Of a stretch of DNA of 64,000 nt, positions 22,286-56,450 are shown one piece after another; the stretch's first letter is position 1; each line of letters opens with the position of its first letter. The DNA comes from a virus. Both the position numbers and the translations under genes were made by a program. The notes under the pieces were generated by a model, which saw nothing but the letters and a program-made list of their open reading frames with translations, was not told the origin of the DNA and searched no databases. The DNA is taken from the IMG/VR virus record IMGVR_UViG_3300020188_000808, positions 124,001-188,000 of that record; one strand, written 5' to 3'.

Positions 22286-22314
22286 TTGCTCTTTCTCTTT
22301 AAATAGTGTATAAT
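22286..22314 (+). promoter_or_regulatory. Sigma-70-type promoter opening the accessory island
   Basis: TTGCTC at 22286-22291 and a perfect TATAAT at 22309-22314, with exactly 17 bases between them. An AAGGAG ribosome site (22321-22326) and a GTG start at 22334 follow. The spacer holds TTTAAATA, which also resembles a late box. The 14-base string TTAAATAGTGTATA recurs in the promoter at 60842. Confidence 0.7.
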
Positions 22315-22333
22315 ACACTAAAGGAGAATTACT

Positions 22334-22687
22334 GTGGATGAACGTCTTGAAAAAGCATTAGATTTTGCCAATTATATGACTACTCTTAACAACCAAAAAC
22401 GGGTGTTAAAAGAGAAGTTTTATGAAAGTGCAATACATTACCACAATGGTGGACAATTCTCCGTAAACAAAGACCTAATGAATTTTTGTAGTATGTTAGT
22501 AAACACAGGACAAGAGTCTGTAGTACTAATTGACGACAATGATATTCCTATTAAAGTTGCAGATGTTGAAACATTCTTAGGTGACATTTTAAATATCTAC
22601 TTTACAGCATCAAACGAGTACCTAACAGAATACGAAAAGATACGGAGCCTTCGAAAGGTCTCTGGGCTTGTAGAATATGAAGAATAA
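22334..22687 (+). CDS. Conserved phage protein, unknown function
   Basis: 117 residues; the GTG start is set by a strong AAGGAG ribosome site 7 bases upstream. Mostly helical, acidic at the C-terminus (GLVEYEE), with no membrane segment or catalytic motif. The stretch YHNGGQFSVNKDLMNF followed by ASNEYLTEYEKI resembles a small protein common in marine T4-like phages, from memory. It is the first gene of the plus-strand enzyme operon and overlaps the next gene by 11 bases. No function can be inferred. Confidence 0.6.
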   Translation: MDERLEKALDFANYMTTLNNQKRVLKEKFYESAIHYHNGGQFSVNKDLMNFCSMLVNTGQESVVLIDDNDIPIKVADVETFLGDILNIYFTASNEYLTEYEKIRSLRKVSGLVEYEE

Positions 22688-23525
22688 AGGTGCATTAATA
22701 TTTGCTAGAAATAACGAACAAGTTGATTATCTTAAACAAGCATATTATCTAGCAAAGCGTATAAGCAAATATCTTAATTTACCAACAACTGTTGTAACAG
22801 ATAGTGTTGAATACTTAAAAGATACCTATGTCGATTATGATACAGTATTTGATAATGTAATCGAAGTCCCATATGCTCGCGGCGCCAGCGAAAAACGTTA
22901 CTATGACGGCTCGGGTGTATACAAACAACTATCATTTAAAAATGACTTGCGTACACAAGCCTATAAACTAACACCGTATGACGAAACAATAATGTTAGAC
23001 AGTGATTATATAATTGCAAATGATGTACTCAAACATTGTTTTACACAAGAACACAATTTCTTAATATATAAAGATGCAAAAGACCTAACAGGATTTAGAG
23101 ATACTACCGAGTTTCAAAAAATTAGTGAAACTAGTATTGATTTTTATTGGGCGACAGTTGTATATTTTAAAAAAAGCAAAGAAGTAGAAACATTTTTTAA
23201 TTTAACACAACATATACAAGATAACTGGCAACACTATAACAGTATATTTCAAATTAACAAACCAACGTTTCGTAATGATTGGGTGTTTAGTATTGCAATA
23301 CATATTATGAATGGTTATCAAGCAGGAGATTTTGCAAGTTCATTACCGGGTAAAAAATATTATACAGCAGATAGAGATATTTTGTGGGAATTAAAAGATG
23401 ACAACTTTTTATTTTTAGTAGAAAAAGAAGGACACCTTGGAGAATACACACCTTTGCGTATTAAAGGTAGTAGTGTTCACGTTATGAACAAGTTTAGTTT
23501 GAATAGGATCATAGACAATGACTAA
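22677..23525 (+). CDS. Glycosyltransferase-like protein (GT-A fold, DSD motif)
   Basis: 282 residues. The start resembles nucleotide-diphospho-sugar transferases (GALIFARNNEQVDYLKQA). A DxD motif lies at residues 108-110 in ETIMLDSDYI, where GT-A enzymes bind the metal and sugar nucleotide. It shares this design with the next gene (YDETIMLDSD versus YDETIVMDTD), so the two are diverged tandem copies. It overlaps both neighbours by 8-11 bases, indicating coupled translation. The likely role is transfer of a sugar to a glycan or protein; donor and acceptor are unknown. A GT8-like family is the best guess. Confidence 0.65.
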   Translation: MKNKGALIFARNNEQVDYLKQAYYLAKRISKYLNLPTTVVTDSVEYLKDTYVDYDTVFDNVIEVPYARGASEKRYYDGSGVYKQLSFKNDLRTQAYKLTPYDETIMLDSDYIIANDVLKHCFTQEHNFLIYKDAKDLTGFRDTTEFQKISETSIDFYWATVVYFKKSKEVETFFNLTQHIQDNWQHYNSIFQINKPTFRNDWVFSIAIHIMNGYQAGDFASSLPGKKYYTADRDILWELKDDNFLFLVEKEGHLGEYTPLRIKGSSVHVMNKFSLNRIIDND

Positions 23526-24351
23526 AGGTATAGTCTTAATAGCACAAAACAGCGAATATAACTACGTAGAACAAGCGTGTGCGTTAGCTATGAGTATTAG
23601 AGCTACTAATGACACTAAAGTTTGTTTGTTAACCAACGATACAGTACCATCTAGGTATGTAGATCTGTTTGATGTTATTAAAGAAATACCGTGGGAAGAC
23701 GATTCCGCTAATATGGAATGGAAAGTAGCTAATCGTTGGAAGTTATATCATGCTAGTCCGTATGATGAAACTATTGTAATGGATACTGATATGCTTGTAT
23801 TACAAAATTTAGATTCATGGTGGAACTTTTTAAGCAACTATGAAGTGTTTTATACTAGCAAAGTATACACATATAGAGGTGACGAAGTTAACGACACTTA
23901 CTATCGTAAAACATATATTGCAAATAACTTACCAAACGTTTATGCAGGCTTTCATTATTTCAAAAAATGTGACTTTGCAAAAGAATTTTATACAATGTTA
24001 GAATTAGTAATGAACAACTGGCAATTATTTTATGGAAAATATGCAAGTAAAGAATATCAAAATTGGTTAAGCGTTGACACAAGCACAGCAATCGTTACAA
24101 AGATACTTGATTGTGAAGACAGAATTACAAATAAGAAAGTGTCATTTCCTAGTTTTACACATATGAAGCCTAGAATACAAGGATGGTATAATCCTAGTGA
24201 AACATGGCGTAGTAGAGTGGGTGCATATCTAACTGATGACCTACAATTAAAAATAGGCAATCATCAACAGCAAGGTATTTTTCATTATACTGAAAAAGAA
24301 TTTTTAGATCAGTCTAAAATACAAAAATACGAAAGGTATCTTAACGTATGA
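23518..24351 (+). CDS. Glycosyltransferase-like protein (GT-A fold, DTD motif)
   Basis: 277 residues. The N-terminus (GIVLIAQNSEYNYVEQACALAMSI) and DTD at residues 89-91 in ETIVMDTDML are typical of GT-A enzymes such as family 8. A late His (GIFHYTEKEF) near the C-terminus could be the second metal ligand of that family, which is inference. It overlaps the previous gene by 8 bases and the next by 4. Cytosolic; no membrane segment. With its upstream paralogue it could add two successive sugars. Confidence 0.68.
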   Translation: MTKGIVLIAQNSEYNYVEQACALAMSIRATNDTKVCLLTNDTVPSRYVDLFDVIKEIPWEDDSANMEWKVANRWKLYHASPYDETIVMDTDMLVLQNLDSWWNFLSNYEVFYTSKVYTYRGDEVNDTYYRKTYIANNLPNVYAGFHYFKKCDFAKEFYTMLELVMNNWQLFYGKYASKEYQNWLSVDTSTAIVTKILDCEDRITNKKVSFPSFTHMKPRIQGWYNPSETWRSRVGAYLTDDLQLKIGNHQQQGIFHYTEKEFLDQSKIQKYERYLNV

Positions 24352-24935
24352 TATTAACTGCGGAGTTGCCTAAACAAGAAAGATATGTAGTATTTGATCC
24401 TAATAACGGTGATGTGTTAGCAGTACCTAATTATAAACCAGATGGTAATTATATTCCTGTAGAGGAACACGAAGTTAAAGGATTAATTTCGGGACAAGAA
24501 CCGCTAAGTTATTATTATGTACATTACATCAAACATACTAAACAATATGAACTTAGACAGCGTTCAAATACTAGCATTGATAGTTATCTAGTAAATGATT
24601 TAATATACGAATTACCAATGACATCAGTTAATGAGCCAGACATTCATGTATTACAAAATATCAAAGACACATGTTGGAAGATTACTATTGGCGGAGATCT
24701 AAAAGCAAATATTTTAGCACAAAAAGTTAATTTTAAAAATACTATATCGTTTAGTGTTACTGAAAAAGACGATCCAAATATATTACTAAAAACATTAAGT
24801 TTTAGTTTTGCTGATTTATCAGACGTAAAATATGTAATACTTCCATTTGATAGCGATTTTGAATTTAAAGCAAAACCAGTTAGTGTGTATACAATTAAAA
24901 ACTTTGATAGATACTTATACGAGGTAATCAAATGA
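24348..24935 (+). CDS. Unknown protein between glycosyltransferases
   Basis: 195 residues, no recognised family. Predominantly beta-like, with alternating hydrophobics (ERYVVFDPNNGDVLAVPNY near the start, then TISFSVTEKDDPNILLKTLSFSF), no signal peptide and no conserved Cys/His cluster. The first 25 residues look like a short strand repeat of the kind used by virion proteins. It overlaps both neighbouring glycosyltransferase genes by 4 bases, so it is co-translated with them. It may be a carrier, a scaffold or a substrate; the sequence does not decide. Confidence 0.5.
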   Translation: MILTAELPKQERYVVFDPNNGDVLAVPNYKPDGNYIPVEEHEVKGLISGQEPLSYYYVHYIKHTKQYELRQRSNTSIDSYLVNDLIYELPMTSVNEPDIHVLQNIKDTCWKITIGGDLKANILAQKVNFKNTISFSVTEKDDPNILLKTLSFSFADLSDVKYVILPFDSDFEFKAKPVSVYTIKNFDRYLYEVIK

Positions 24936-25816
24936 AAATAAACATTGCAGAGCAAGATATTATCTTTTTAAGTTATGACGAACCTAACTGTGAAAAGAAT
25001 TTTGTTGATTTAGTTAACAAGGTTCCGTGGGCAAAACGTGTACACGGTGTAGAAGGATCAGATGCCGCACACAAAGCCTGTGCTGAATTGAGCGAAACTA
25101 AACACTTTGTTACAGTAGACGGCGATACAATTATTGACCCAGAGTTTTTAAACGTAGTACTAGACTTAGACGAATTAAAAGTTGACGATGATTATCAATT
25201 TAGTTGGTGCGGACATATTAATGTTAACGGACTAAAATATGGTAATGGCAGTTTAAAAATGTGGACTAAAGACTTTGTAAAAAATATGCAAACGCATGAA
25301 AACACAGACGGTGAAGATGATACTAGTATTGAATTTTGTTACTTTGATAATTACTATCAATTAAATGACAACTATAGTACAAGTCTTATAAATGCAACTC
25401 CACATCAAGCCTGGAGAGCAGGGTTCCGTGAAGGAGTTAAGATGAGTTTGAATAGGGGTGCTAAAGTTAAAGACCTTGCAAACGATACTTGGTGGCAAAA
25501 TTATCAACGTTTGTTGATATGGATGCAGGTTGGTGCTGATGTAGACAATGGAATATGGAGTGTAATGGGAGCAAGACAAGGTTGTTACATGACAATGTGT
25601 ACAGATTGGGACTTTGTGCAAACAAGAGATTTTATATATCTTAATAAACTGTGGGAAGAAACAAAAAATAAAGATCCATTAGTATACAGCAAAGAATTAG
25701 GTCAAAGTCTTAGTAGCGAGTGCGGATTACCTATCTCATCTACACCCTTTGACGATGAACAAAGTCATTTTTTCAAACAAGTATACATTAACACGGACAG
25801 AGTTATTCGTAAATGA
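24932..25816 (+). CDS. GT-A-like glycosyltransferase (DGD motif), paralogue A
   Basis: 294 residues. The start DIIFLSYDEPNCEKNF followed by VDGDT (DGD 63-65) is the GT-A nucleotide-sugar binding pattern. It aligns along most of its length with the 224-residue protein at 32620 (FISYGEANADSNW, VVDGDA, then WRGAFREC versus WRAGFREG), so the island holds two members of this family. A conserved W-R-x-x-F-R-E element near residues 165-172 is shared by both. It overlaps the next (radical SAM) gene by 4 bases. Likely a family 2-like transferase; substrate unknown. Confidence 0.62.
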   Translation: MKINIAEQDIIFLSYDEPNCEKNFVDLVNKVPWAKRVHGVEGSDAAHKACAELSETKHFVTVDGDTIIDPEFLNVVLDLDELKVDDDYQFSWCGHINVNGLKYGNGSLKMWTKDFVKNMQTHENTDGEDDTSIEFCYFDNYYQLNDNYSTSLINATPHQAWRAGFREGVKMSLNRGAKVKDLANDTWWQNYQRLLIWMQVGADVDNGIWSVMGARQGCYMTMCTDWDFVQTRDFIYLNKLWEETKNKDPLVYSKELGQSLSSECGLPISSTPFDDEQSHFFKQVYINTDRVIRK

Positions 25817-27186
25817 GTGAATTAGAAAAAATTAAAACACTAATGCCTAAAATTGAGGATGAAACCTCTCCAACATTCTGTTTAGCAAAATGGCATCACA
25901 CAACTATCTATCTTGCAACAGGAGAAACACATAGTTGTTATCATCCTGCTCCGCATAAAATTCCTTTAGAAGAATTAGAAGGCAATCCTAGTGCGTTACA
26001 TAATACTATTGAGAAAAAAGAACAGCGTAAACAAATGCTATGCGGAGATAAACCAGACGGTTGTAGTTACTGTTGGAAAATTGAAGCAATGGGTAAAGAC
26101 TTTGTAAGTGATAGACATATTAAAACTGCAAGTATATACACACCTGAAAGAGTAGCGGAAATAAAACAAAAAGGGGCGGATTTTAACGTAAATCCTGAGT
26201 ATATTGAAATTAGTTTTAGTAATGAATGCAATTTTAAGTGTGGATACTGTCACCCTAAAGCCTCTAGTAGGTATTGGAACGAAATAAAACAACATGGACC
26301 ATACGATATGTCAAGCACACATAGACAAGACATTGATTGGTTTGAAGTACAAAAAGACGAAGACACGAATCCATACGTAAAAGCGTTTTGGGAATGGTGG
26401 CCTGAACTTAGTAAGACACTAAACATTTTGCGTATTACAGGCGGCGAACCATTGATGCATAAAAGTTTTTGGAAACTGTTAGAAAAGTTAGATAACGATC
26501 CTAAGCCACACATACAAATTGAAGTAAACAGTAACATGGGTGTTAAGCCTAAGCTAGTTGAAAGACTAACTGAAACAGTTAAGCGTTTAAAAGCAGAAGG
26601 CAAGATTAAAAGTTTTAAATTGTACACTAGTATTGATACTTGGGGACCAAGAGCAGAATATGCACGTACCGGGTTAGACATTAAGTTATGGGAACAAAAC
26701 TTAGATTATTATCTAAGCAATACAAACTGGCCTGTAACATTTATGATTACGTTTAATATATTTGGTGTAACTAGTTTTACGCAACTATTAGAAAAAATAC
26801 TAGAGTGGCGTACAAAATACAATAGTGATGACAATGCTACTCAGTGGCAACGTATTAGATTTGATACACCTCATTTAAAAGAACCAAGCATATATGACAT
26901 GAACATTTTACCTAAAGAAGAATTTATGCCGTATATGGAAAAACACTTACAATTTATTAAAGATAACCAAGACGATACTAATCGTACTAAGTTTACAGGG
27001 TTAGAATACGAAAAGTTTAAACGTGTAGTAGAGTATATGCGTACAACACATTATGAACCACGTAAGCTAGAACAAGCACGTAGAGATTTTCATAACTGGT
27101 TCAAAGAATTTGATCGTAGACGTAACTGTAATTTGGTAGAAACTTTTCCAGAACTAGAAGGCTTTTATAATGACTGCGGAAAGTAA
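25813..27186 (+). CDS. Radical SAM protein with N-terminal SPASM-like cysteines (1)
   Basis: 457 residues. The 4Fe-4S/SAM site is CNFKCGYC (C139, C143, C146), with the SAM-binding GGEP at 210-213. The N-terminal third carries extra cysteines (C23, C42, then CSYC near 84-87), the layout of twitch/SPASM-like radical SAM proteins in which the auxiliary-cluster segment precedes the barrel. Such enzymes make a 5'-deoxyadenosyl radical to modify peptides, proteins or small molecules. It overlaps the next radical SAM gene by 17 bases. The substrate is not evident; the neighbouring glycosyltransferases suggest a shared product. Confidence 0.85.
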   Translation: MSELEKIKTLMPKIEDETSPTFCLAKWHHTTIYLATGETHSCYHPAPHKIPLEELEGNPSALHNTIEKKEQRKQMLCGDKPDGCSYCWKIEAMGKDFVSDRHIKTASIYTPERVAEIKQKGADFNVNPEYIEISFSNECNFKCGYCHPKASSRYWNEIKQHGPYDMSSTHRQDIDWFEVQKDEDTNPYVKAFWEWWPELSKTLNILRITGGEPLMHKSFWKLLEKLDNDPKPHIQIEVNSNMGVKPKLVERLTETVKRLKAEGKIKSFKLYTSIDTWGPRAEYARTGLDIKLWEQNLDYYLSNTNWPVTFMITFNIFGVTSFTQLLEKILEWRTKYNSDDNATQWQRIRFDTPHLKEPSIYDMNILPKEEFMPYMEKHLQFIKDNQDDTNRTKFTGLEYEKFKRVVEYMRTTHYEPRKLEQARRDFHNWFKEFDRRRNCNLVETFPELEGFYNDCGK

Positions 27187-28363
27187 TACATTTTGCATAC
27201 TTCCGTGGATTCATTTCTATGCTAATCCAGACGGCAATGTACTTCCTTGTTGTATAGGTGATTGGCGTCAACCTCTTGGCAACACACGTAAAAACACTAT
27301 TAAAGAAATATGGAATAGTGAAGAATATAAAAAATTAAGACTTGCATTATTAAACAATGAAAAGCCTAGTGCTTGTACACAATGTTGGAAACACGAAGAA
27401 GCAGGAATAGAAAGCAATAGAATTGCACAAAATAATAGATTTGCACAGCATATTAGTATAAAAGACGAAACCAATTTTGACGGTTCGTTAGATATAATGA
27501 AGTTACTATACTTTGATGTACGTTGGAGCAACATTTGTAATTTTAAATGCAGAACCTGTAGTAGTACTTACAGTTCTACATGGGCTGTAGAAGATAACAA
27601 GCAAGGTGAAAATAAACCTGTATACATTTTTGCAGGCGGAGATAACAACGATAATTTGTTTGAACAGTTTAAGCCGTACCTTAAAGGTATTCAAGATTAT
27701 TATTTTGCAGGTGGCGAGCCTCTTATTACAGATAAGCATTATGATATTTTAGATTATTTAATTGAAAATAAAAAGACTGATGCTGTACTGCAATACAACA
27801 GTAATTTAAGTAATTTATTTTTTAAGAAGAAAAGTATTACAGAGTATTGGAATAATTTTAAACACGTTGAAGTACGTGCAAGTATTGACGGCTATGGAAA
27901 CAGAGGCGAGTATATTAGAGAAGGTACTGATTGGCCAACTATAGAACAAAACTTAAAAATTATTAAAAAAGAAAGTCCGCATGTAATTATTAGTTTTAAT
28001 TGTGTAGTAAGTGCATTTAATGTATTAACACTTGTAGACTTTTTAGAATATATGTCTAGCAAAGGATTTGATGTAAACAACAGTACGCTTTATAATATTG
28101 TTGAACCTAATTACTACAGTTTTAATGCACTAACAGATGAACAAAGACAAACTGCAATAGATAAGTTACAAGCATACGCAAATACAGTAACACATACAGA
28201 ACATTTAAGATATGTAAATGGTGTTATTGATTACTTGCACAAGTCAACATTTGATCAAAGTGCAAATGATTTGTTTAAATCTAACAATATGTACTTTGAT
28301 AAAATTCGTAATCGTTCTTTTAACGAAACGTTTCCTGAACTTATTGATGTATTAACGGATTAA
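27170..28363 (+). CDS. Radical SAM protein with N-terminal SPASM-like cysteines (2)
   Basis: 397 residues. The N-terminus reads FCILPWIHF, then GNVLPCC and CTQCWKHEEAG: the auxiliary-cluster segment placed before the barrel. The radical SAM site is CNFKCRTC (C123, C127, C130) and AGGEP follows. ATG at 27170 has GAAGG 8 bases upstream. The N-terminal layout matches the proteins at 36134, 41435 and 45303, so these are expanded paralogues. The gene ends against the opposite-strand SGNH gene, the two sharing 23 bases. Confidence 0.87.
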   Translation: MTAESNTFCILPWIHFYANPDGNVLPCCIGDWRQPLGNTRKNTIKEIWNSEEYKKLRLALLNNEKPSACTQCWKHEEAGIESNRIAQNNRFAQHISIKDETNFDGSLDIMKLLYFDVRWSNICNFKCRTCSSTYSSTWAVEDNKQGENKPVYIFAGGDNNDNLFEQFKPYLKGIQDYYFAGGEPLITDKHYDILDYLIENKKTDAVLQYNSNLSNLFFKKKSITEYWNNFKHVEVRASIDGYGNRGEYIREGTDWPTIEQNLKIIKKESPHVIISFNCVVSAFNVLTLVDFLEYMSSKGFDVNNSTLYNIVEPNYYSFNALTDEQRQTAIDKLQAYANTVTHTEHLRYVNGVIDYLHKSTFDQSANDLFKSNNMYFDKIRNRSFNETFPELIDVLTD

Positions 28364-29207
28364 TTTGTGTATTAGGACGCATAATAGTTTCGTACTTTAA
28401 CATATCTAACCAACGCGGTTTCATACTATATAAACTAAATGCACCCTCTTGACTTAGAACAGCACTTTGCATCAACTTAATCCATTTAGTTTGTGCGGCA
28501 CCGACTGCTTTGTCAGTAGATTCCTTCCAGTCGTGTTTAAATGTATGTTTTAGATAATCGTAATGTTCAAGTGGACTAGGATGCCCGTCTTGAAATCCTT
28601 TGTGGACTAGTCCTTTATCTTTCACAGTCTTTGCCTGTAAATCGTTGTTCCATAGTGTGTGATAAAAACTAGGAAGAATTGCATCTAAACATTCGTGATA
28701 TAATCCAGCAAGTGTTTCAAGATTTATATTTTTCTTTGATGTCAACTCCCATTGATTTGGAAATTCAAAATCTAACATCTTAATCATGTGATGTTGTGTG
28801 CGATGCTTTAATAACTGATGAGCACTTTTAATTAGTGCAAAATCTCTAACATATGACCCATACTCACTAAAATAATTTTCTAAAAAATGCTGATCATACT
28901 CTCCTTGAGAAAATATATTACCTGGAACTAACCAACCATCTTTTTCAGGTAAAAATCTATCTTCACGACATACATTAGTCCATTGCACAATAACTAAATC
29001 ATTATGATCAAATGTGTACACATTATCAGCCTGCATAATCATATTATGTATATACTGATTACCTGCACCACTGCGACCAAAATTTCTAAACTCTGCATCA
29101 GGAAATTCTACACCTAAAATGTTAGCCCATGTACCCCATTGATATCCTGTAAAGCTACAACCAAATGTGAATATTCTTTGAGGTGTGTTATGAATTAGTT
29201 TTTTCAT
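28341..29207 (-). CDS. SGNH/GDSL-type hydrolase-like protein
   Basis: 288 residues. FTFGCSFT (Ser18) is the block-I nucleophile region, GAGNQ (48-51) fits the Gly/Asn oxyanion blocks, and DGHPSP (D207, H209) is the C-terminal Asp-His pair. SGNH enzymes remove or transfer acyl groups on sugars and other esters. No signal peptide, so it acts in the cytosol or in assembled particles. It overlaps the upstream gene by 20 bases and shares its late promoter at 30499. With the second SGNH protein at 31702 it could act on acylated glycans. Confidence 0.65.
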   Translation of the reverse strand: MKKLIHNTPQRIFTFGCSFTGYQWGTWANILGVEFPDAEFRNFGRSGAGNQYIHNMIMQADNVYTFDHNDLVIVQWTNVCREDRFLPEKDGWLVPGNIFSQGEYDQHFLENYFSEYGSYVRDFALIKSAHQLLKHRTQHHMIKMLDFEFPNQWELTSKKNINLETLAGLYHECLDAILPSFYHTLWNNDLQAKTVKDKGLVHKGFQDGHPSPLEHYDYLKHTFKHDWKESTDKAVGAAQTKWIKLMQSAVLSQEGAFSLYSMKPRWLDMLKYETIMRPNTQINPLIHQ

Positions 29208-30506: not shown

Positions 30507-30532
30507 TGCGTATATAATGATTGGAGAACATA

Positions 30533-47382: not shown

Positions 47383-48081
47383 ATGACAGCAGATATAGAA
47401 CATATAAAGCGTAGGAAAGACATTGTTACTGTAAAGTACCCAGAGCAATTTGACCCTAAATGGATTGTAATGGAAAGCGGCTGGCCTTGTTTTAGGCTAA
47501 GTGCTTTGGATAATCAACCTTGGAAAGAAATGTATGCAGAAGCAGAAGCACTTGCAGACAAGTTTTATCCACATAGAGAAACTACATATGGCAAAGGTTG
47601 GAAAAGTTTAACACTACACGGATTAAATGATGACACACAAAGTTTAGGTGGGTATGGTGATAGAGATGAAACTATCAAACAATTAGATTGGACTTGGGTA
47701 GCAGACGAATGTCCTATTACTAAAAAGTTTTTAACAGATGTGTGGCCTGCAGAGTTTTTAAATCGAGTAAGATTTATGTTGCTTGAACCAGGCGGTTACA
47801 TACTTCCACATCAAGATAGGTCAGATGAAGAAAAACGTTTAAGTGTTTGCAATATTAGTTTAAATAATCCAGAAAATTGCAAATTTATTTTTAAAGATCA
47901 CGGCATAGTGCCGTTTGAAGATAGCGGTAGTGCATTCTTAATGGACATATCAAATGTACATGCAGTATATAACGATAGTGATAAACCTCGTATACATATG
48001 ATTATACATTATGAATTAGGTAGACGTATTAGAGATTTCTTTTACGTGCTAAGACAAAGCTATTATACTAATCAAGGGTAA
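47383..48081 (+). CDS. Aspartyl/asparaginyl hydroxylase-type 2OG oxygenase (3)
   Basis: 232 residues. PGGYILPHQD gives H143 and D145; NVHAVYNDSDKPRIHMIIH gives H193 and R203. These are the iron and 2-oxoglutarate ligands of aspartyl/asparaginyl beta-hydroxylases. FYPHRETTYGKGWKSLTLHG (62-80) matches the protein at 38690, so the two are paralogues from separate operons. Ribosome site weak (GAG). It is the first gene of a plus-strand run that ends with the halogenase at 55302. Confidence 0.78.
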   Translation: MTADIEHIKRRKDIVTVKYPEQFDPKWIVMESGWPCFRLSALDNQPWKEMYAEAEALADKFYPHRETTYGKGWKSLTLHGLNDDTQSLGGYGDRDETIKQLDWTWVADECPITKKFLTDVWPAEFLNRVRFMLLEPGGYILPHQDRSDEEKRLSVCNISLNNPENCKFIFKDHGIVPFEDSGSAFLMDISNVHAVYNDSDKPRIHMIIHYELGRRIRDFFYVLRQSYYTNQG

Positions 48082-49552: not shown

Positions 49553-50199
49553 TGGAGATGAAGCGTTACATAGAGGAACATGACCAAGCAGACTTAGGCT
49601 GGGCAGTTAAAAAGTTATGCAGAGTTAATCCGGATGAAATACAAAGTTGGTACGCTGACTTAGAAAAAGATTACAGCGATTGGAAATTTGTTATAGGTGA
49701 ACAACAACATGTATGGCAGTTTCCTATTAGTGATCCTGAAGCAAAGACAGGGCATCGTCTAATGGACGATACAGCATACTATACTCTTTGTTGGAATAGT
49801 GATGAACCGGGACCTAAACCATTTGAACAAGGGTGTGCAAAGCCAGAGTATAGAGATAATGATAATGACGAGCTTAATCCAAGGGAATGTTTTAAAGGAT
49901 ATGGATTAGATTTAGTAAACAATTTGCCTATGCGTAGTAAGAAATGGTTAGTAACTATTCATACACCAGGTACTAAATTAATTACACACCAAGACGCTCC
50001 AGATAAAATACGTGTACACATACCTATACATACCAATGCAGACAGTAATTGGATAATAGGCGGAAAAGAATACCATATGGAAGTAGGCTGGGCTTATCTT
50101 GTTAACACAACTATTCCGCATAGTGTAGAAAACAAAGGTACAACGGATAGGATACATTTATACGGAAAGGTTTGGACAGATGATTGCCGTAAGTTATAG
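49552..50199 (+). CDS. Aspartyl/asparaginyl hydroxylase-type 2OG oxygenase (4)
   Basis: 215 residues. HTPGTKLITHQD gives H146 and D148; IPHSVENKGTTDRIHLYG gives H190 and R200. The IGGKEYHMEVGWAYLVN strand between them is typical of this fold and shared with the proteins at 50598, 51146 and 53146. The first 60 residues contain YADLEKDYSDWKF, also seen in those relatives. It overlaps the phosphatase gene by 20 bases and abuts the preceding gene (TAATG). Confidence 0.78.
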   Translation: MEMKRYIEEHDQADLGWAVKKLCRVNPDEIQSWYADLEKDYSDWKFVIGEQQHVWQFPISDPEAKTGHRLMDDTAYYTLCWNSDEPGPKPFEQGCAKPEYRDNDNDELNPRECFKGYGLDLVNNLPMRSKKWLVTIHTPGTKLITHQDAPDKIRVHIPIHTNADSNWIIGGKEYHMEVGWAYLVNTTIPHSVENKGTTDRIHLYGKVWTDDCRKL

Positions 50200-50608
50200 T
50201 AAGAAAGACTTTGTATCTAAAATGCAAAGTGAAAATATCACAGATGTAACAGTTGAAGATACTAATGATTATTATATTTGCATTGATTCAACAGGTGGTC
50301 CAAACAGTGAGCCTTATTTTAAACAATTTCATCCCAATGTATTAAATTTATGTTTTGATGATGTTGCTGAAGATCAAACAAATTGGGGAGAAGATATACA
50401 ATCATATTACAAAGCAGTTGCACCAACCCTAACACAAATTCAACACATTTCAAATTTCCTTAAAGATGCTTGTGGAACAATTCATGTTCATTGTATGAAA
50501 GGCGAATCACGTAGCAAAGCAGTTGCAGATTATGTAAATAATACTAGAATTAAACATAATGGAAAGTATGCATATACAATTATAAGGAATACACTAGATG
50601 AGCTTTGA
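50180..50608 (+). CDS. Cys-based phosphatase-like protein (DSP/PTP type)
   Basis: 142 residues. VHCMKGESRSKA is the P-loop signature HCx5R with C105 and R111, as in dual-specificity phosphatases; the CFDDVAED loop (58-65) sits where the general-acid Asp loop lies. About 140 residues fits a minimal catalytic domain. It overlaps oxygenase genes at both ends (11-20 bases). It could remove phosphate from an island intermediate or from a host protein; the kinase-like protein at 44861 is a possible counterpart. Confidence 0.7.
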   Translation: MIAVSYSKKDFVSKMQSENITDVTVEDTNDYYICIDSTGGPNSEPYFKQFHPNVLNLCFDDVAEDQTNWGEDIQSYYKAVAPTLTQIQHISNFLKDACGTIHVHCMKGESRSKAVADYVNNTRIKHNGKYAYTIIRNTLDEL

Positions 50609-51149
50609 TGTAAAAGAATTACCTATAGGGATCGAATATAGTGACTTTAGAAGTTACTACATAGGATTACAAACAAACTTTGAACATTTAAAATTTACTA
50701 ATGTAGCTGATACTGTTAATAGTGAAAAACATAAAACTGATGGTGTATACGGTTGGGGTATACAAAGTAATTTAGACGACTTAACAATACCTTGTCCACC
50801 TTGGAATGTACACAAGGAAGGTAGCGATGATTATAGAGATACTGAATTAGTATACGGTGTAATTAATAGACTTAAAGTAAAATTTCCTCAAGCAAGACAG
50901 TTTAGTATTAGCGGCCATCCACCCGGAACTGAAATAGCACAGCACACCGACACTGATAGATATCTTAAAATACATATTCCTATACTAAGTAACCCTGATG
51001 CATGTTTTGTATTTGGTGATAAAAAATATTCGTTAGTTATTGGAAAAGCATATCTAATAAATACTAGACGCCCACACGGTACTATTAATAACGGAGAAAC
51101 AGATAGAGTACATTTATTTTTTAAAGTACCTGCTGAACATTACATATGA
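50598..51149 (+). CDS. Aspartyl/asparaginyl hydroxylase-type 2OG oxygenase (5)
   Basis: 183 residues, the shortest of the set. GHPPGTEIAQHTD gives H116 and D118; RRPHGTINNGETDRVHLFF gives H160 and R170. The KIHIPILSNPDACFVFG and IGKAYLINTRRPHG strands match the related protein at 51146. It overlaps the next gene by 4 bases, and the pair likely arose by tandem duplication followed by divergence. Cytosolic. Confidence 0.77.
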   Translation: MSFDVKELPIGIEYSDFRSYYIGLQTNFEHLKFTNVADTVNSEKHKTDGVYGWGIQSNLDDLTIPCPPWNVHKEGSDDYRDTELVYGVINRLKVKFPQARQFSISGHPPGTEIAQHTDTDRYLKIHIPILSNPDACFVFGDKKYSLVIGKAYLINTRRPHGTINNGETDRVHLFFKVPAEHYI

Positions 51150-51874
51150 GATTATTAACTGCTAAAGATATAACAGATGTTGATGCATTATTTAATAGTC
51201 TCGAATGGGATATAATTGAATTAGACTTTAGCATTAATAAAGATGATTTAGAATTCTATTATACACAATTAAAAACACGATTACAAAATTTATGCTTTAG
51301 TTTTAATTCTAAAGAATATCTACGTCCTGAAATATATGATAGATTTCAAAAAGAAAATGCAGTTGGAAATTATCAAGGAAACGTACAAGGTTGGAGTGTT
51401 AGTTGGCCAATAGAGCGAGATATTCCATGTCCAAGTAAATCACAAGCTAACATTGATATGTATCCTGAATTACAAAATTTAGATGAAGAAAAATTCTATT
51501 ATGATTGTGTACCAATGCAAGTTTATAAATTTGGTATCTTAAACAAAATGTTAGAAACACTATCTTTGCAATCATTAAGACAGATGTTAATAGCATTACA
51601 CCCTAGTGGACTTAAAGTTAATACACATACTGACGGAAAAACTAGAAAACTACATGTTCCATTTTATACAAATAAAGATGCTGTTTTTACTTTTGGCGAA
51701 AACAGAGAACGAACATATCACATGGAATTGGGCAAAGGATATATAATTAATACCCTAGTTCCACATGGTACAGAAAATAACGGAAGTACAGAGCGAGTAC
51801 ACTTATTGTCCAGAGTTGATGACGATTTTATGCAATCGCTTTTATTAATAAACTGCAATATAGCAGATAAATAA
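51146..51874 (+). CDS. Aspartyl/asparaginyl hydroxylase-type 2OG oxygenase (6)
   Basis: 242 residues. LHPSGLKVNTHTD gives H161 and D163; VPHGTENNGSTERVHLLSRV gives H207 and R217. It has an extra 50 residues before the fold, including FSFNSKEYLRPEIYDRF and IERDIPCPSKS. The IPCP element is shared with the preceding gene (TIPCPPWN). A late promoter-like box overlaps its stop codon and serves the downstream propeller gene. Confidence 0.77.
   Translation: MRLLTAKDITDVDALFNSLEWDIIELDFSINKDDLEFYYTQLKTRLQNLCFSFNSKEYLRPEIYDRFQKENAVGNYQGNVQGWSVSWPIERDIPCPSKSQANIDMYPELQNLDEEKFYYDCVPMQVYKFGILNKMLETLSLQSLRQMLIALHPSGLKVNTHTDGKTRKLHVPFYTNKDAVFTFGENRERTYHMELGKGYIINTLVPHGTENNGSTERVHLLSRVDDDFMQSLLLINCNIADK
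51866..51873 (+). promoter_or_regulatory. Late promoter-like box GATAAATA
   Basis: One mismatch to TATAAATA, overlapping the stop of the upstream oxygenase. A strong AGGAGA ribosome site (51882-51887) and ATG at 51893 follow, one of the few true spacers in the island, which supports a real transcription start here. Confidence 0.5.
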
Positions 51875-51892
51875 CAGTAACAGGAGATAATA

Positions 51893-53140
51893 ATGAGCAA
51901 CACATATTTTACACAGGTATTAGACGAACCATACCACTTAGGAAATGGTGAATTTTTGTCAGTAATCACTAACGGAAAAGCACGTCACGAAGGCGAAGAA
52001 ACAAGAGATTTTAACAAAGATGCAGGTGCAAGAGCAGGATTGCTTAGAGTAAATGCAGATAGTACTACATTTGTAGACTTTTTTGATAAAAGTGATAACG
52101 GTGACAGATACCGAGGTATTGCAGTTGTAGGTAATACAGCATATGTAATGCGTACACAAAAAGACAAAGTAGACAGCATTATTAGAGTAGCGGCTGTAAA
52201 CTTAGATACTAATGAAGTTACAATGATTGAAGAAAAAGGTGTTACAGTACACGGCTCAGAAACTCCTAAAACATTCTGTGGACACTTTAACTTTGGTCGC
52301 CCAATTACAGTTGGTACTAAAATTGTTTATCCACCAATTATGAGTGGAATGATTATTGTGTTTGATACTGTTGCTAATACATTTACTGTACACGAAACAG
52401 AAGAAAAGTTTGCTTCTATTCATAGTGTGTACGTAGAAGATTTAAATGAAGTTGTATTTTTTCCATATGGTAAAACAACTAACAAGTTGTTAACATTAGA
52501 CATGGAAACAAATACAATTACTGCACATGAAGCTCCAACTAACGGTGCATTTTATCATGTTAATACAAACGGAACTAAAGCAGTTGGTGCTCCATTAATT
52601 ATGGACGGTACTACAGAATTTAACTTCTGGGTATATGACGGTGATACAGTTCAATCAGTTGCTTATGATTCATCTAGCACAGATGACATGGGTGGACAAA
52701 TGGGTTTCAAATACGGAACTATGAACGGTAACACATTATTAACACATACTTGTTGGGAAGGCTGTAAAGAGTTTGTATCATTAAACTTAGATACACTTGC
52801 TATTGATAGCTTTGCAACTAATGAGTCACTAGGTAGTAAACCAGTTATTAATGCTGGAGACGTTTACTTGTTTCCATCAATACAAAATCCAAGCATGGTA
52901 AATCCAACAACTAAAGTTTTTAAAGTTGAAGGAACTGCAATTAACGAAGTTATGGACTTAGGTACTGCAAATATTACTTCAGGATCAATTAATGATACTG
53001 ATAGTGTTACAATGTTGGCACCTTACAAGTTTGATTTTAGTGATGCAGGGTTAGGTAGTGATATGGCTATTGTAGATCTTAATTCTAAAACATCAAAACT
53101 TATTCCAGTTAATTTAAGCCTAGAAACTTATTCTAGTTAA
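51893..53140 (+). CDS. Beta-propeller-like repeat protein, C (late-expressed candidate)
   Basis: 415 residues. Repeats of about 45-50 residues with a strand, a Pro/Gly turn and FDT or LDT-type turns recur (KIVYPPIMSGMIIVFDT, EVVFFPYGKTTNKLLTLDM, TLLTHTCWEGCKEFVSLNL). The pattern is looser than in the minus-strand proteins at 42531 and 43654 but probably the same fold. The sequence is acidic and Thr/Asn-rich in the style of phage virion proteins, and it has its own ribosome site and late box, so it may be an abundant, possibly virion-associated protein. Confidence 0.6.
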   Translation: MSNTYFTQVLDEPYHLGNGEFLSVITNGKARHEGEETRDFNKDAGARAGLLRVNADSTTFVDFFDKSDNGDRYRGIAVVGNTAYVMRTQKDKVDSIIRVAAVNLDTNEVTMIEEKGVTVHGSETPKTFCGHFNFGRPITVGTKIVYPPIMSGMIIVFDTVANTFTVHETEEKFASIHSVYVEDLNEVVFFPYGKTTNKLLTLDMETNTITAHEAPTNGAFYHVNTNGTKAVGAPLIMDGTTEFNFWVYDGDTVQSVAYDSSSTDDMGGQMGFKYGTMNGNTLLTHTCWEGCKEFVSLNLDTLAIDSFATNESLGSKPVINAGDVYLFPSIQNPSMVNPTTKVFKVEGTAINEVMDLGTANITSGSINDTDSVTMLAPYKFDFSDAGLGSDMAIVDLNSKTSKLIPVNLSLETYSS

Positions 53141-53145
53141 TTGTT

Positions 53146-53862
53146 ATGGAGCGTTTTAACGATACGCCCTGCCAAGACGCCACAGGAAAAATGTTCGCTG
53201 ACTATCACGAATATGTAGACTACGATAAAAAGAATAATCCAGATAGATGCCATTTTAAAAACGCTCAAGGCAGAGAAACCTTTGCTCCTAGTTTTAATCG
53301 TGTAAGTGAAATATATCCATACCATGATCTAGGATTTCAAATGCATAAATGGTTTGAGTTTGATCTAGAGAAAGCCCGTGATTGGTATAAACAATTTTTA
53401 GAAAAATATTCAGATACTGAATTTCTCTACCAAGGAGAAACTACAGAACCTAACAGTTGGGGTTGTGTATATGGACAAGGGTGTGGGTTATATAGTATTA
53501 AAGAAGAACAGTTATTTGGTTATTTGTTAGATATACACAATGCACTAATTGATATGGGATTAGATAAAGATGCATTTGAATGGGTAGTAGTAAAACATAC
53601 ACCAGGAACACGCTTAGGTATGCATCAAGATGAGCCACAATGGCTTACAGTACATTTACCTTTATACACTAATGATAAAACCAATTGGACAATAGGCGGA
53701 ACTCCGTTCTTAATGCCAACTGACGGGTGTTATATTATTAATAGTACACAACCTCATGATGTTGTAAATTATGGCGACACAGATAGAATACATATCTATT
53801 TCAGTATAAAAACTTCACAGGTTGAAAAAGTCTGGGAAAAGCCAAATATAAAAGGAAGTTAG
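53146..53862 (+). CDS. Aspartyl/asparaginyl hydroxylase-type 2OG oxygenase (7)
   Basis: 238 residues. KHTPGTRLGMHQD gives H160 and D162; QPHDVVNYGDTDRIHIYFS gives H204 and R214. TIGGTPFLMPTDGCYIIN between them matches the protein at 49552. The N-terminal 60 residues contain a Cys/Asp-rich patch (DTPCQDATGKM) with no match in the others. The ribosome site is weak; it probably relies on readthrough from the propeller gene, whose stop lies 5 bases upstream. Confidence 0.75.
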   Translation: MERFNDTPCQDATGKMFADYHEYVDYDKKNNPDRCHFKNAQGRETFAPSFNRVSEIYPYHDLGFQMHKWFEFDLEKARDWYKQFLEKYSDTEFLYQGETTEPNSWGCVYGQGCGLYSIKEEQLFGYLLDIHNALIDMGLDKDAFEWVVVKHTPGTRLGMHQDEPQWLTVHLPLYTNDKTNWTIGGTPFLMPTDGCYIINSTQPHDVVNYGDTDRIHIYFSIKTSQVEKVWEKPNIKGS

Positions 53863-53870
53863 ACACTAGT

Positions 53871-54194
53871 ATGAAAGAAGTTACAGATACAAACTTTAAC
53901 GAGTACTTAGATACTACACGTGGTCGGTGTGTGATGTTGTTCTATGCTAACTGGAACGGCCCTAGCAGTCAGTTTCAAACTAACTTTGCACAACTAGAAT
54001 CTAGCTATAGTGAAGTTAACTTTGCACAATCAGAAGTAGATCCTAATCCCTCTACATACAACAGATTCACAGTACACGGGGTTCCCTGCGTTAAAGTATT
54101 TGAACACACTGATTCAAGTACAACTGTATTAGGAACATTATATGGTGACAGTTCAAAAGAACAAATCAAACAATTTATTGATAAACATGTCTAA
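53871..54194 (+). CDS. Thioredoxin-fold protein lacking the CxxC pair
   Basis: 107 residues, full thioredoxin length. The N-terminal strand, FYANWNGPSSQF and the cis-Pro loop (VPCVKVF, P72) match thioredoxins, but the active-site WCGPC is WNGPS (residues 28-32), so both catalytic cysteines are replaced. It cannot do dithiol-disulfide exchange. Cys20 and Cys73 remain but lie outside the usual site. A processivity or binding role, like the use of host thioredoxin by T7, or a chaperone role for the next gene (halogenase, 8-base overlap), is conceivable. Confidence 0.75.
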   Translation: MKEVTDTNFNEYLDTTRGRCVMLFYANWNGPSSQFQTNFAQLESSYSEVNFAQSEVDPNPSTYNRFTVHGVPCVKVFEHTDSSTTVLGTLYGDSSKEQIKQFIDKHV

Positions 54195-55302
54195 ACAAAA
54201 AATTGTTATAGTAGGCGGTGGTACATCTGGATGGATGACTGCCGCTTATCTTTCTAAAAAAACCGATTGGGACATTACACTTATTCAAAGTCAAGATATC
54301 CCTATCATTGGAGTAGGCGAAAGCACACTTCCAAGTATATACGATTTTATTCAAGAGTGTGGATTAACTGAACAAGATCTGTTTGATGATTGTGATGCTG
54401 TACGCAAGTATACAATTAAACACAAAAATTGGCACGGTGATAGTTGGTATCATCATTTTTGTTTTAATGAATCAGAACATGACGAACAAATGCGTTGGAT
54501 GATAAATTATGAAATGCCAGATAAAAAATGGCGCCACGCATATCATATTGATGCTAACAAGTTTGGAATAATGCTTAGAGATAAAGTAGCATTACCTAAT
54601 GGCGTTAAACTAATAAACAAAACATTAGACACTATAGATGATATTGACGCAGATTTAATTATTAATTGTGCAGGATTTAATAAACTATTTCCTGAAACTA
54701 ATATGATTAAATCTAGTCTTAAAAATAACTGTGCAGTAGTAGCACCTAGTTATGATACTGAACTAAAGTATTATACAGAAACTACTGCTATGAGTGCAGG
54801 ATGGATGTGGAATATCTATTTACAAAATAGAATAGGTAATGGATATGTATTTAATAAAGACTACCAAACAATAGAAGATGCAAAACAAGAGTTCATAGAT
54901 ACTTGTCCGTATAAACTAGAATTAGATAAGTTAAGAGTAATTGAGTGGACAGGACAATATAGTGATACTCCTTATCAAGGTAATATTCTAAATGTAGGTT
55001 TAAGTGCAGGATTTTTAGAACCATTAGAAGCACAAGCAATATGGTTAATACAATACCAAGTAGAAATGCTAGTAAGACTTTATAACAAGCAAAAAATCTA
55101 TAACGCACAATGGAGAAAGGTTGTAACGCATATTGAAAAGTTTTTAGAACTTCACTATACTGCAACTAGTAAAAATACTCCATATTGGAAAAACGAAGTT
55201 AAAGAAATTAAGATTAAAAAGACACCGTTTGCTATTTTTGATGAGTACAGTTATCGTTGCCTAGCGAAAGGTTACGCTCTTCCATATACTTTAGAACATT
55301 AA
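54187..55302 (+). CDS. Flavin-dependent halogenase-like protein (tryptophan halogenase family)
   Basis: 371 residues from ATG 54187 (an upstream ATG at 54142 would extend into the thioredoxin-like gene). IVIVGGGTSGWMTA is the FAD loop; GVGESTLPS follows; K74 in RKYTIKHKNW aligns with the catalytic Lys; GLSAGFLEPLEAQAI matches the conserved C-terminal motif. The WxWxIP motif is present as WMWNIY (W206, W208, Tyr for Pro at 211). It is shorter than typical (about 500), as are some marine phage halogenases such as VirX1 of a cyanophage. It would halogenate an electron-rich substrate with FADH2 supplied by a reductase not seen here. Confidence 0.8.
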   Translation: MSKQKIVIVGGGTSGWMTAAYLSKKTDWDITLIQSQDIPIIGVGESTLPSIYDFIQECGLTEQDLFDDCDAVRKYTIKHKNWHGDSWYHHFCFNESEHDEQMRWMINYEMPDKKWRHAYHIDANKFGIMLRDKVALPNGVKLINKTLDTIDDIDADLIINCAGFNKLFPETNMIKSSLKNNCAVVAPSYDTELKYYTETTAMSAGWMWNIYLQNRIGNGYVFNKDYQTIEDAKQEFIDTCPYKLELDKLRVIEWTGQYSDTPYQGNILNVGLSAGFLEPLEAQAIWLIQYQVEMLVRLYNKQKIYNAQWRKVVTHIEKFLELHYTATSKNTPYWKNEVKEIKIKKTPFAIFDEYSYRCLAKGYALPYTLEH

Positions 55303-55792
55303 TACGCCACAGACGCTGTGGAACATTAAACAACATCATACTTTGTTCTAACTTCCATATACCACGTCTTGCTAATAATGGCATCATAGTATCATTCATA
55401 CGTTTACTTTTACCACCATCATCATTTATGTTTGTACTAATATAAAGTTCTGCATTGAGACTTTGTTCTAATGCCCAATTGATTTGCAAATTTAATAACT
55501 GACTTAGTTGTATTCCAGTCTTAAAAATATCTCTACCAGTGCCTAATGTATAACCAGGTAATTGGGCACCACGGAATAAACATCTATATGCATCTGGACT
55601 AACTTCGGGTAGTTTATGTATGCCAGCAATACTAACAATTTTATCTTTGTGTGTAGCAACAGTCCAAGCACCTTCTTCTAGTACCCATTCCCATTTCATT
55701 TTTTTAAGAGATGTGTTATTGCTGAAGTTTTGTGATTTGCAAAATTTCTCTACTAACGATTCATCGTCTTTAGTAGCAAACCTAAAATTCAT
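55232..55792 (-). CDS. GNAT-like acetyltransferase
   Basis: 186 residues from ATG 55792 (11-base overlap with the upstream stop, as is common here; ATG 55810 is possible). The start FRFATKDDESLVEKF and the WTVATHKDKIVSIAGIHKLP strand pair fit the N-acetyltransferase fold, and PGYTLGTGRDIFKTGIQLS could be the CoA pyrophosphate loop. The classical Q/RxxGxG/A loop is not exact. A phage-type version of this protein may recur in marine T4-like phages. It overlaps the convergent halogenase end by 71 bases. An acetyl or acyl group transfer is likely. Confidence 0.5.
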   Translation of the reverse strand: MNFRFATKDDESLVEKFCKSQNFSNNTSLKKMKWEWVLEEGAWTVATHKDKIVSIAGIHKLPEVSPDAYRCLFRGAQLPGYTLGTGRDIFKTGIQLSQLLNLQINWALEQSLNAELYISTNINDDGGKSKRMNDTMMPLLARRGIWKLEQSMMLFNVPQRLWRINVLKYMEERNLSLGNDNCTHQK

Positions 55793-56450
55793 TTTTCCAA
55801 GTTTTACCATTAGCTATATTCATCCTGTGTGAAAATGTTTTAGTATTCATGTCAAATATATCGCCTGTACTTTTACCATTAATAATACAATGGGCTAACT
55901 TAGATGTAGCAGTAATTGGATTAAACATCACATGTGTTCTTTTTTCATCTATAGTGTTAAAATCAAAACTAGGTGAATCGTATCCAATCATTACCGGCGG
56001 AGCATACTCTGTCATGCCGTACCAATTAGCAACAGTCTGTACTCCACGCTCTTTGAATGCATCAATAAATGATTGCTCAATTTTACTACTACCAGTAACC
56101 ATATAACGTACACAACTCATGTCTAAGTCTTTAAAGCCTTTTGTCTTTTGTAACAACTCTAAATGGCGTGGAATTAACGCTATATACGTCGGTTTAACGC
56201 TACTAAACAACGTAGGGTAGGTAAGTGCATTAAAGTTAGCACTAACTAGCTGTGCGCCGCTTATATAAGCAGGAAGAGCTGTTATAGTATAGTGTGCTAT
56301 AGTGTTTGCTGGAAAGACATCCAATACAATATCGTCTTTAGTTAGTCCAATTTCTTTTGCTGAAAGTTTTGCAGATTGGTTAATATATTCCCAAGAGTGT
56401 GTTACACGTTTTGGTTCATCTGTACTACCTGATGTGAATAGAGTAAGCAT
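55782..56450 (-). CDS. Minimal AMP-binding (adenylate-forming) protein
   Basis: 222 residues, under half the usual 500-plus. It begins almost at the A3 P-loop (LFTSGSTDEPKR, 4-15). A5 is NWYGMTEYAP (142-151), then STGD (194-197, A7) and SHRMNIANG (207-214, A8 Arg and hinge). The N-terminal third and the C-terminal domain with its catalytic Lys are missing. No adjacent fragment was seen in the 44-base gap, so it may not be a broken gene but a deliberately small adenylating domain. It could activate an acid for the acetyltransferase-like protein beside it. Confidence 0.65.
   Translation of the reverse strand: MLTLFTSGSTDEPKRVTHSWEYINQSAKLSAKEIGLTKDDIVLDVFPANTIAHYTITALPAYISGAQLVSANFNALTYPTLFSSVKPTYIALIPRHLELLQKTKGFKDLDMSCVRYMVTGSSKIEQSFIDAFKERGVQTVANWYGMTEYAPPVMIGYDSPSFDFNTIDEKRTHVMFNPITATSKLAHCIINGKSTGDIFDMNTKTFSHRMNIANGKTWKNEF

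Follow-up and report, generated by a model that had tools for sequence, protein, structure and literature searches.

The host recognition cluster (HRC) of pelagimyophages is an accessory island of the tail region that lies between VrlC and the neck gene gp14. It contains glycosyltransferases along with tail fibres; the authors also mention radical SAM cassettes in it, and an Asp/Asn beta-hydroxylase is a core gene of these phages (PMC7029224). The locus described here is an island of 41 genes (22334-56450, about 34 kb) with nine radical SAM and seven HxD oxygenase genes. It lies in a 64,000-nucleotide stretch (the window, bases 124001-188000) of the 267,783-bp virus record IMGVR_UViG_3300020188_000808. 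Plain coordinates refer to the window and those marked G000 to the whole record; other G and L numbers are working labels of contigs and stretches compared. The island is a family-wide variant of the HRC. We read it as one inherited decoration pathway in a host-recognition slot, with the phage's own tail-tip adhesins as its target, and hold this with slightly less than even confidence. A pathway for a rare decoration, as proposed in the original prediction, is still the best reading; gene order and slot are conserved.

The gp23-type major capsid protein matched 2,510 phage records, the best being jumbo T4-superfamily phages (Sinorhizobium phage Phosso, Vibrio phage 2.275.O, Pseudomonas PA5oct and Cronobacter GAP32) at 66-71% identity. 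T4-type portal and baseplate genes were recognised by eye, and the MoxR-type ATPase (60917) is nearest to PA5oct and its kin. The phage is a jumbo T4-superfamily myovirus (267.8 kb) of a marine branch and not a close relative of T4; the earlier label T4-like is correct at the superfamily level.

The radical SAM domain PF04055 was found in nine places of the whole record, all within the island. Eight of them passed the Pfam cut-off and the ninth (27170) was assigned by the NCBIfam family N_Twi_rSAM (NF033640) with 387 bits against a cut-off of 170. Five of the nine proteins passed the NF033640 cut-off (224-418 bits) and two more (35143 and 46366) have a C-terminal SPASM domain; CxxxCxxC is intact in all nine. 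Six of the seven oxygenases passed the PF05118 cut-off and contain the HxD...H iron site, and 39321 was recognised by the motif alone. Both counts in the original prediction were thus confirmed. The paralogues are only 14-25% identical to the first of the nine, whereas orthologues in other phages share about 57-92%, which argues for nine distinct roles. The nine genes are ancient, separate orthologous groups that have been maintained next to one another and did not arise by recent duplication. PF04055 was found nowhere in PA5oct, Vibrio 2.275.O and P-SSM2, in one place each in GAP32 and HTVC008M, in four in Phosso and in six in Vibrio phage K566. A tenth radical SAM gene, outside the window (G000 189974-190873, L125), is QueE-like with a weak Pfam match and possibly serves deazaguanine. 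DNA hypermodification, raised by this gene and the glycosyltransferases, was set aside, as no base-modification enzyme was recognised in the island.

Two IMG/VR searches gave 71 loci, and 22 contigs were used for domain counts. Most contigs carried 7-10 PF04055 places (three had 3, 4 and 6), and 21 carried 1-6 PF05118 places, the exception (G016) being a fragment. The density of radical SAM genes, which had been thought unusual, is so in comparison with the cultured phages checked and is normal for this uncultured family. INPHARED, a collection of cultured phages, gave no match for 47383, 25813, 24932 and 48083, and 36110 weakly matched Vibrio jumbo phages. At an orthologue cut-off of at least 45% identity, 16-37 orthologues of the 41 genes were found in each of 11 marine phage contigs (a near-identical copy not counted) with an absolute Kendall tau of 0.99-1.00. 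Ratios of nonsynonymous to synonymous substitution (dN/dS) were mostly 0.04-0.27 for genes with clear orthologues, and these genes are under purifying selection. Because the order is kept in 11 contigs and the slot is shared by distant phages, as shown below, the island is not a scatter of insertions found singly elsewhere.

About a dozen core genes (24932, 32620, 33272, 34539, 36110, 47383, 48083 and others) hold a fixed order in most of 16 contigs, whereas edge cassettes differ between phages: the halogenase, the thioredoxin and 53146 occur patchily, as does the 37435-38690 cassette. Variants with alternative-oxidase-, amidinotransferase-, aminotransferase- and AdoMet-decarboxylase-like genes were seen by eye in G011 (16969-19613, L104) and G009 (L098-L099). 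Patchy edges, and the description of HRCs as hypervariable (PMC7029224), would suit a tolerant hot spot that gathers unrelated morons, neighbours without a common pathway. The fixed core, the purifying selection, a hydroxylase-glycosyltransferase pairing that recurs in bacteria and a multi-gene fusion in G013 speak against such a hot spot, which is already contradicted for the core genes and which we regard as very improbable. No ordered multi-radical-SAM/hydroxylase island was found described in the open-access literature, weak evidence of novelty given that most subscription papers lie outside its coverage.

The slot follows the baseplate and fibre genes and precedes the VWA/MoxR genes. The genes to its right keep their order beyond the island in relatives, in L163 and in G025:C3, and matches of 60917 carry the ATPase annotation. 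Bacterial genome contigs were also scanned, and some of those found look like phage DNA that was binned into metagenome-assembled genomes, namely L187-L193 (G025:C3 and G023:C6), L159, L161 and L163. G025:C3 has at least 17 radical SAM places in 41 kb, with counterparts of 62520, 60917, 59545, 58226 and 57919 on one side and of 22334, 21389, 15405 and 570 together with baseplate-type genes on the other. G023:C6 has at least 15 radical SAM open reading frames beside fibre genes, and a short version is seen in L159, L161 and L163. TctA- and TctC-like tricarboxylate transporter genes, seen by eye in G023:C6 (40982-43455, L193), could reflect a chimeric assembly. Among cultured phages, Atu_ph07 of Agrobacterium has three radical SAM genes in the slot, after the 15405 orthologue and a fibre gene; Phosso also has three there and a fourth beyond the 58226/58831 homologues. 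The slot of Vibrio 2.275.O contains none. The slot is older than the island, and radical SAM clusters occupy it in very distant phages.

Pfam, PHROGs and NCBIfam failed to name the glycosyltransferases, SGNH proteins and beta-propellers of the island. Predicted structures of proteins without a Pfam match revealed at least two GT-A glycosyltransferase folds. The AlphaFold2 model of 24932 (predicted local distance difference test score, pLDDT, 84.5) adopts a GT-A fold, and its top Foldseek matches are the peptide S-glycosyltransferases SunS/ThuS (E 5e-5). In 48083 (pLDDT 71) the N-terminal part is GT-A-like, and the best matches, at modest E values of 3e-3 to 3e-2, include majastridin, human COLGALT1, Mimivirus R699 and the PBCV-1 capsid glycosyltransferase. 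Full-length matches of 48083 are unnamed uncultured phage proteins, and sequence searches with 48083 and the 24932 family gave no match among solved structures. As to the other accessory genes named in the original prediction, the halogenase and the nucleotide-sugar dehydrogenase are certain from their family matches, as are the thioredoxin and the short AMP-binding gene; the methyltransferase match of 34539 is weak (E 0.04) and the SGNH assignment is by motif only. In the halogenase the catalytic Lys is in place by eye, and the motif reads WMWNIY compared with WxWxIP of the tryptophan halogenase family.

A PF05118 gene adjoins 48083 in nearly all phage loci and in Bdellovibrionota clusters; this neighbour is missing only from a distant G023:C6 copy and from the second copies of L143/L172. 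In G010 and G019 this neighbour had been missed by the gene caller and was recovered by a Pfam scan. The arrangement suggests that 48083 and the neighbouring Asp/Asn hydroxylase are a pair that hydroxylates and then glycosylates. Domains of the 24932, 32620 and 34539 types are joined in a single protein in G013 (glycosyltransferase-glycosyltransferase-methyltransferase), and genes of the three types lie close together, with radical SAM genes, on a Bdellovibrionales contig. Several N_Twi_rSAM genes occur with PF05118-type hydroxylases and 48083-like proteins in Bdellovibrionota (L143, L145, L151 and L172), and these clusters are likely the cellular counterpart of the island.

In the proposed pathway, Asp/Asn-family hydroxylases would put hydroxyls on protein residues, to which the neighbouring GT-A enzymes (48083, 24932 and 32620) would attach sugars. 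The radical SAM enzymes would make C-H changes (epimerisation, dehydrogenation or crosslinks) on peptide or sugar, and methyl-, halo- and acyl-transfer genes would complete the decoration. The adjoining adhesins (16023-22282, 37435 and 56495) would thereby gain a new receptor-binding surface through chemistry as well as sequence. Conserved order, purifying selection, the shared slot, the hydroxylase-glycosyltransferase pairing and the G013 fusion support a decoration pathway, as do the fold resemblances of 48083 and 24932 and the deep divergence of the nine radical SAM paralogues. The virion is preferred as target because of the fixed place by adhesins in very distant phages, the protein- and peptide-directed enzyme classes and the parallel of Atu_ph07 gp170 described below. 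Enzymes, gene order, selection and place are established, and from them we infer the modification of a protein or glycoconjugate.

The island might instead use rare sugars to remodel the surface glycan of the infected host (lipopolysaccharide or capsule), which would hide receptors from superinfecting phage or from progeny that re-adsorb. We consider this a serious possibility, well short of an even chance. It would explain the UDP-sugar dehydrogenase, glycosyltransferases and SGNH-like genes, and such a role was proposed by the pelagimyophage authors for the glycosyltransferases of similar islands (PMC7029224). In cultured Vibrio phage K566, the glycosyltransferase-like genes near PagP have N_Twi-like radical SAM genes among them; in QD01 radical SAM genes lie near a heptosyltransferase, and bacterial N_Twi_rSAM genes were seen by eye beside deoxysugar genes. 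Genes for the supply of CMP-Kdo and heptose-type sugars (KdsB-like, KdsA-like of the DAHP synthetase I family, and HldE/RfaE-like) and two carbamoyltransferase genes, which also suit a glycan role, lie elsewhere in the genome (G000 266177-267614, L128; 52585-53841, L120; 66747-68558, L121; 13075-14085, L118). Remodelling of the host glycan does not, however, need the fixed place by adhesins seen in all relatives, and the island showed no recognisable flippase, polymerase or ligase among genes of which several lack an assignment. The usual substrates of Asp/Asn hydroxylases and SPASM enzymes are proteins or peptides.

Several points weigh against the adhesins as target. The lipopolysaccharide-type sugar genes (Kdo, heptose and carbamoyltransferases) in the same genome and the arrangement in K566 both fit a host-surface target better. 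The structural proteins that neighbour the island have no conserved short tail, and no substrate motif was found there. The activities of most island enzymes are predicted, the quality of the 48083 model is moderate (pLDDT 71, template modelling score, TM, about 0.2 to single domains), and the position beside adhesin genes may reflect no more than a site that tolerates insertions.

A different, widespread phage cassette, in which radical SAM and cupin genes stand on either side of virion-type proteins, was found in the same slot of Atu_ph07. Proteins ending in CHxSCHxSCHx(S/A)R(S/G)RR, which otherwise differ, occur in Atu_ph07, Phosso, Burkholderia phage SURPRISE13 and Pseudomonas phage DT01, and in all four the adjoining genes encode a cupin/JmjC-like protein and a SPASM radical SAM enzyme. 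The C-terminal peptide of the Phosso protein is CHTSCHASCHSSRSRR. An IMG/VR scan with a DNA pattern of the CHxS tail matched 50 stretches, and in 40 proteins (L201-L249, the Atu_ph07 record itself included) the motif ran up to the stop codon. For 38 of these 40 the fetched stretch also contained homologues of Atu_ph07 radical SAM or helper genes; the N-terminal parts of the proteins fell into seven BLAST clusters, one with 33 members. The tail falls in phrog_35144, of unknown function, and matches of the cassette radical SAM proteins to maturases of ribosomally synthesized and post-translationally modified peptides (RiPPs), the His-Xaa-Ser system among them, all score far below the cut-offs. 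In papers on such phages the cassette genes are listed without interpretation (PMC8066314, PMC11898562).

In Atu_ph07 the protein enclosed by the cassette in the slot is gp170, and virion proteomics of this phage reported a cluster of virion proteins beginning at coding sequence 170 (PMC6102473). From that boundary we infer that gp170 itself was detected in the virion. The cassette is RiPP-like and may modify a virion protein; it is a short and specific candidate for such modification by a radical SAM enzyme. The CHxS motif is absent from the window phage and its close relatives, and the cassette is not part of the island; it shows that a radical SAM system whose substrate is probably a virion protein can occupy the same slot. 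A doubtful generalisation would be that jumbo phages mature their receptor-binding proteins by radical chemistry, at least nine radical SAM enzymes, Asp/Asn hydroxylases and hydroxyl-directed glycosyltransferases modifying tail adhesins in several steps here and the CHxS cassette being a second version of the strategy. Three adjoining Gly-rich proteins with 25-27 Cys each (10%) were noted in a tail-gene region (G000 71827-72633, 72646-73416 and 74151-74891, L121), and related domains occur in a few cyanophages. No link of these three to radical SAM enzymes as substrates can be claimed, the radical SAM content of those cyanophages being unchecked.

The features are listed in Table 1. Almost no intergenic space was found in the island. 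Three stretches (28341-30471, 41435-47343 and 55232-56450) are encoded on the minus strand, which excludes a single transcript for the island, and joint translation, which the original prediction had extended to all the proteins, would be possible only inside same-strand runs. Overlaps of 1-38 bases had also been reported; two of the larger ones are start-codon artefacts, because the likely starts are 47343 for 46366 (previously 47448) and 54187 for the halogenase (previously 54142). The reading frame at 36134 is open from 36110. As predicted, the island contains no precursor peptide: it has no short gene of this kind and no room for a missed one, and the neighbouring structural proteins of the window phage share no conserved C-terminal tail. 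A RiPP cluster, in which a precursor (leader and core) stands beside maturases, was rejected for the island on this ground.

A phage-borne biosynthetic gene cluster for a diffusible natural product or signal, acting on host or competitors, is improbable. It would account for a halogenase and an adenylate-forming protein in the company of a thioredoxin, oxygenases and radical SAM enzymes; aminotransferase-, AdoMet-decarboxylase- and amidinotransferase-like genes are added in some relatives, and in Sphingomonas and Poseidonocella acyl-carrier and deoxysugar genes adjoin an N_Twi_rSAM gene (both by eye). Against this, the island has no scaffold enzyme (nonribosomal peptide or polyketide synthase), precursor peptide gene or transporter, the adenylating protein is only a partial domain, and linkage to adhesin genes is strict.

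Table 1. Features of the island and its flanks, with the CHxS-tailed proteins of other phages.
Feature	Position	Strand	Basis and remarks
Giant structural (baseplate-side) protein, 4937 aa, left anchor of slot	570..15383	+	Orthologues directly upstream of island in G004, G008-G011, G013, G025:C3, Phosso
Baseplate-type protein, left anchor	15405..16019	+	45-53% to Phosso, Atu_ph07, 121Q-type phage proteins, some annotated 'baseplate protein'
Four tail-fibre/virion structural genes (16023, 18053, 19894, 21389), candidate substrates	16023..22282	+	PHROGs tail families (16023, 19894); kept beside island
Conserved small protein, 117 aa, first island gene	22334..22687	+	Always between 21389 and 22677; down to 38% (G025:C3), 42% (G023:C6)
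Two GT8-like glycosyltransferases (22677-23525, 23518-24351)	22677..24351	+	DxD motifs LDSD, MDTD; no Pfam match; orthologues in distant phages
195-aa protein	24348..24935	+	Fast-evolving; present in most relatives
Predicted GT-A glycosyltransferase	24932..25816	+	AlphaFold2 and Foldseek
Radical SAM 1 (N_Twi_rSAM)	25813..27186	+	PF04055; NF033640 329 bits
Radical SAM 2 (N_Twi_rSAM, twitch/SPASM)	27170..28363	+	NF033640 387 bits
SGNH-like protein	28341..29207	-	Motif only, FGCSFT; no Pfam match
Glycosyltransferase-like protein, 427 aa	29188..30471	-	By eye; no Pfam/PHROGs match; co-occurs with 28341
UDP-sugar dehydrogenase	30521..31705	+	PF00984 E 5e-18; phrog_9148 UDP-glucose dehydrogenase
SGNH-like protein	31702..32619	+	Motif only, VGDSN; no convincing Pfam match
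Putative GT-A glycosyltransferase, paralogue of 24932	32620..33294	+	Aligned with 24932 family, VDGD motif; fused in G013
Radical SAM 3	33272..34231	+	PF04055 E 1e-12
Membrane-type protein, 104 aa	34228..34542	+	Sequence; in few relatives
Methyltransferase-like	34539..35150	+	Methyltransf_25 E 0.04 only; fused to both glycosyltransferases in G013
Radical SAM 4, C-terminal SPASM	35143..36141	+	PF04055, PF13186
Radical SAM 5 (N_Twi_rSAM)	36110..37435	+	NF033640 418 bits
Cassette: tail-fibre-like protein (37435-38013, by eye) and unnamed protein (38010-38699)	37435..38699	+	With oxygenase 38690 in G001-G004 only
Asp/Asn hydroxylase-type oxygenase 1	38690..39334	+	PF05118 E 2e-11
HxD oxygenase 2	39321..39977	+	HRD at residue 135 and distal His; no Pfam match; 71-95% in several relatives
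Radical SAM 6	39974..40909	+	PF04055 E 6e-10
Short-chain dehydrogenase-like	40906..41454	+	Weak adh_short_C2 match
Radical SAM 7 (N_Twi_rSAM, twitch cysteines partly lost in alignment)	41435..42556	-	NF033640 224 bits
Two beta-propeller-like proteins (42531-43661, 43654-44898)	42531..44898	-	Weak Kelch match for first; kept as pair
Small kinase-like protein (HxDxxxxN...DWDN)	44861..45328	-	By eye; no convincing Pfam match
Radical SAM 8 (N_Twi_rSAM)	45303..46376	-	NF033640 228 bits
Radical SAM 9, C-terminal SPASM	46366..47343	-	PF04055, PF13186; start corrected
Asp/Asn hydroxylase-type oxygenase 3	47383..48081	+	PF05118 E 2e-12; adjoins 48083 in phages and Bdellovibrionota
Core two-part protein, N-terminal predicted GT-A fold	48083..49552	+	AlphaFold2 and Foldseek
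Asp/Asn hydroxylase-type oxygenase 4	49552..50199	+	PF05118 E 2e-12
Dual-specificity-phosphatase-like (HCMKGESRS)	50180..50608	+	PF00782 E 0.003, below cut-off
Asp/Asn hydroxylase-type oxygenase 5	50598..51149	+	PF05118 E 4e-11
Asp/Asn hydroxylase-type oxygenase 6	51146..51874	+	PF05118 E 1e-6
Beta-propeller-like protein	51893..53140	+	By eye; no Pfam match
Asp/Asn hydroxylase-type oxygenase 7	53146..53862	+	PF05118 E 1e-8; most relatives without orthologue
Thioredoxin	53871..54194	+	PF00085 E 1e-13
Flavin-dependent tryptophan-halogenase family protein	54187..55302	+	PF04820 E 3e-72; phrog_2928
Acetyltransferase-like protein	55232..55810	-	By eye; no Pfam match
Short AMP-binding (adenylate-forming) protein	55782..56450	-	PF00501 E 3e-21, partial domain
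Right anchor: fibre-like 56495 (by eye), 57919, 58226, 58831, 59255, VWA-like 59545 (by eye), MoxR-type ATPase 60917	56495..62068	-	
CHxS-tailed proteins	L196:13119-14009 (Atu_ph07 gp170), L195:14415-15335 (Phosso), L198:6060-6620 (SURPRISE13_072), L199:6025-6561 (DT01)		Tail motif

Phage accessory genes beside adhesins are usually treated as hypervariable cargo, and here a large enzymatic pathway is inherited intact within a marine phage family. This implies that chemical modification may be as much a part of host recognition, or of host-surface control, as adhesin sequence. The pathway would comprise nine uncharacterised radical SAM reactions and a hydroxylase-glycosyltransferase pair common to Bdellovibrionota, and the cultured relatives Phosso, Atu_ph07 and K566 allow related questions to be tested.

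The island can be compared with several known systems. NCBIfam gives no function for N_Twi_rSAM, to which five of the nine radical SAM proteins belong by score while four fall below. The six island proteins above the cut-off for PF05118 Asp/Asn beta-hydroxylases are short, single-domain, clustered and paired with glycosyltransferases. An O-antigen or lipopolysaccharide conversion cluster would combine glycosyltransferases with a flippase or polymerase that acts on lipid-linked sugars; the island has GT-A folds, and no flippase or polymerase was recognised among its genes, of which several lack an assignment. As in RiPP systems (SPASM maturases, His-Xaa-Ser), SPASM/twitch enzymes are clustered, and the cassettes of Atu_ph07 and Phosso flank a CHxS-tailed protein, whereas the island has neither such a tail nor a precursor-like gene. 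Collagen hydroxylysine glycosylation (PLOD/COLGALT; Mimivirus R699) likewise pairs a hydroxylase with a GT-A protein, and the fold search returned COLGALT1 and R699; the island hydroxylases are of the Asp/Asn and not the Lys type, and the likeness is of fold only, with a low TM-score. Like the HRC, the island lies inside a tail-structural region, flanked on the left by fibres and the giant baseplate-side gene and on the right by the fibre-like 56495. The HRC is described as hypervariable and non-syntenic, whereas here order is almost perfectly kept in the 11 contigs, only edge cassettes vary, and the island belongs to a jumbo-phage family with 7-10 radical SAM genes, rising to at least 15-17 in distant relatives.

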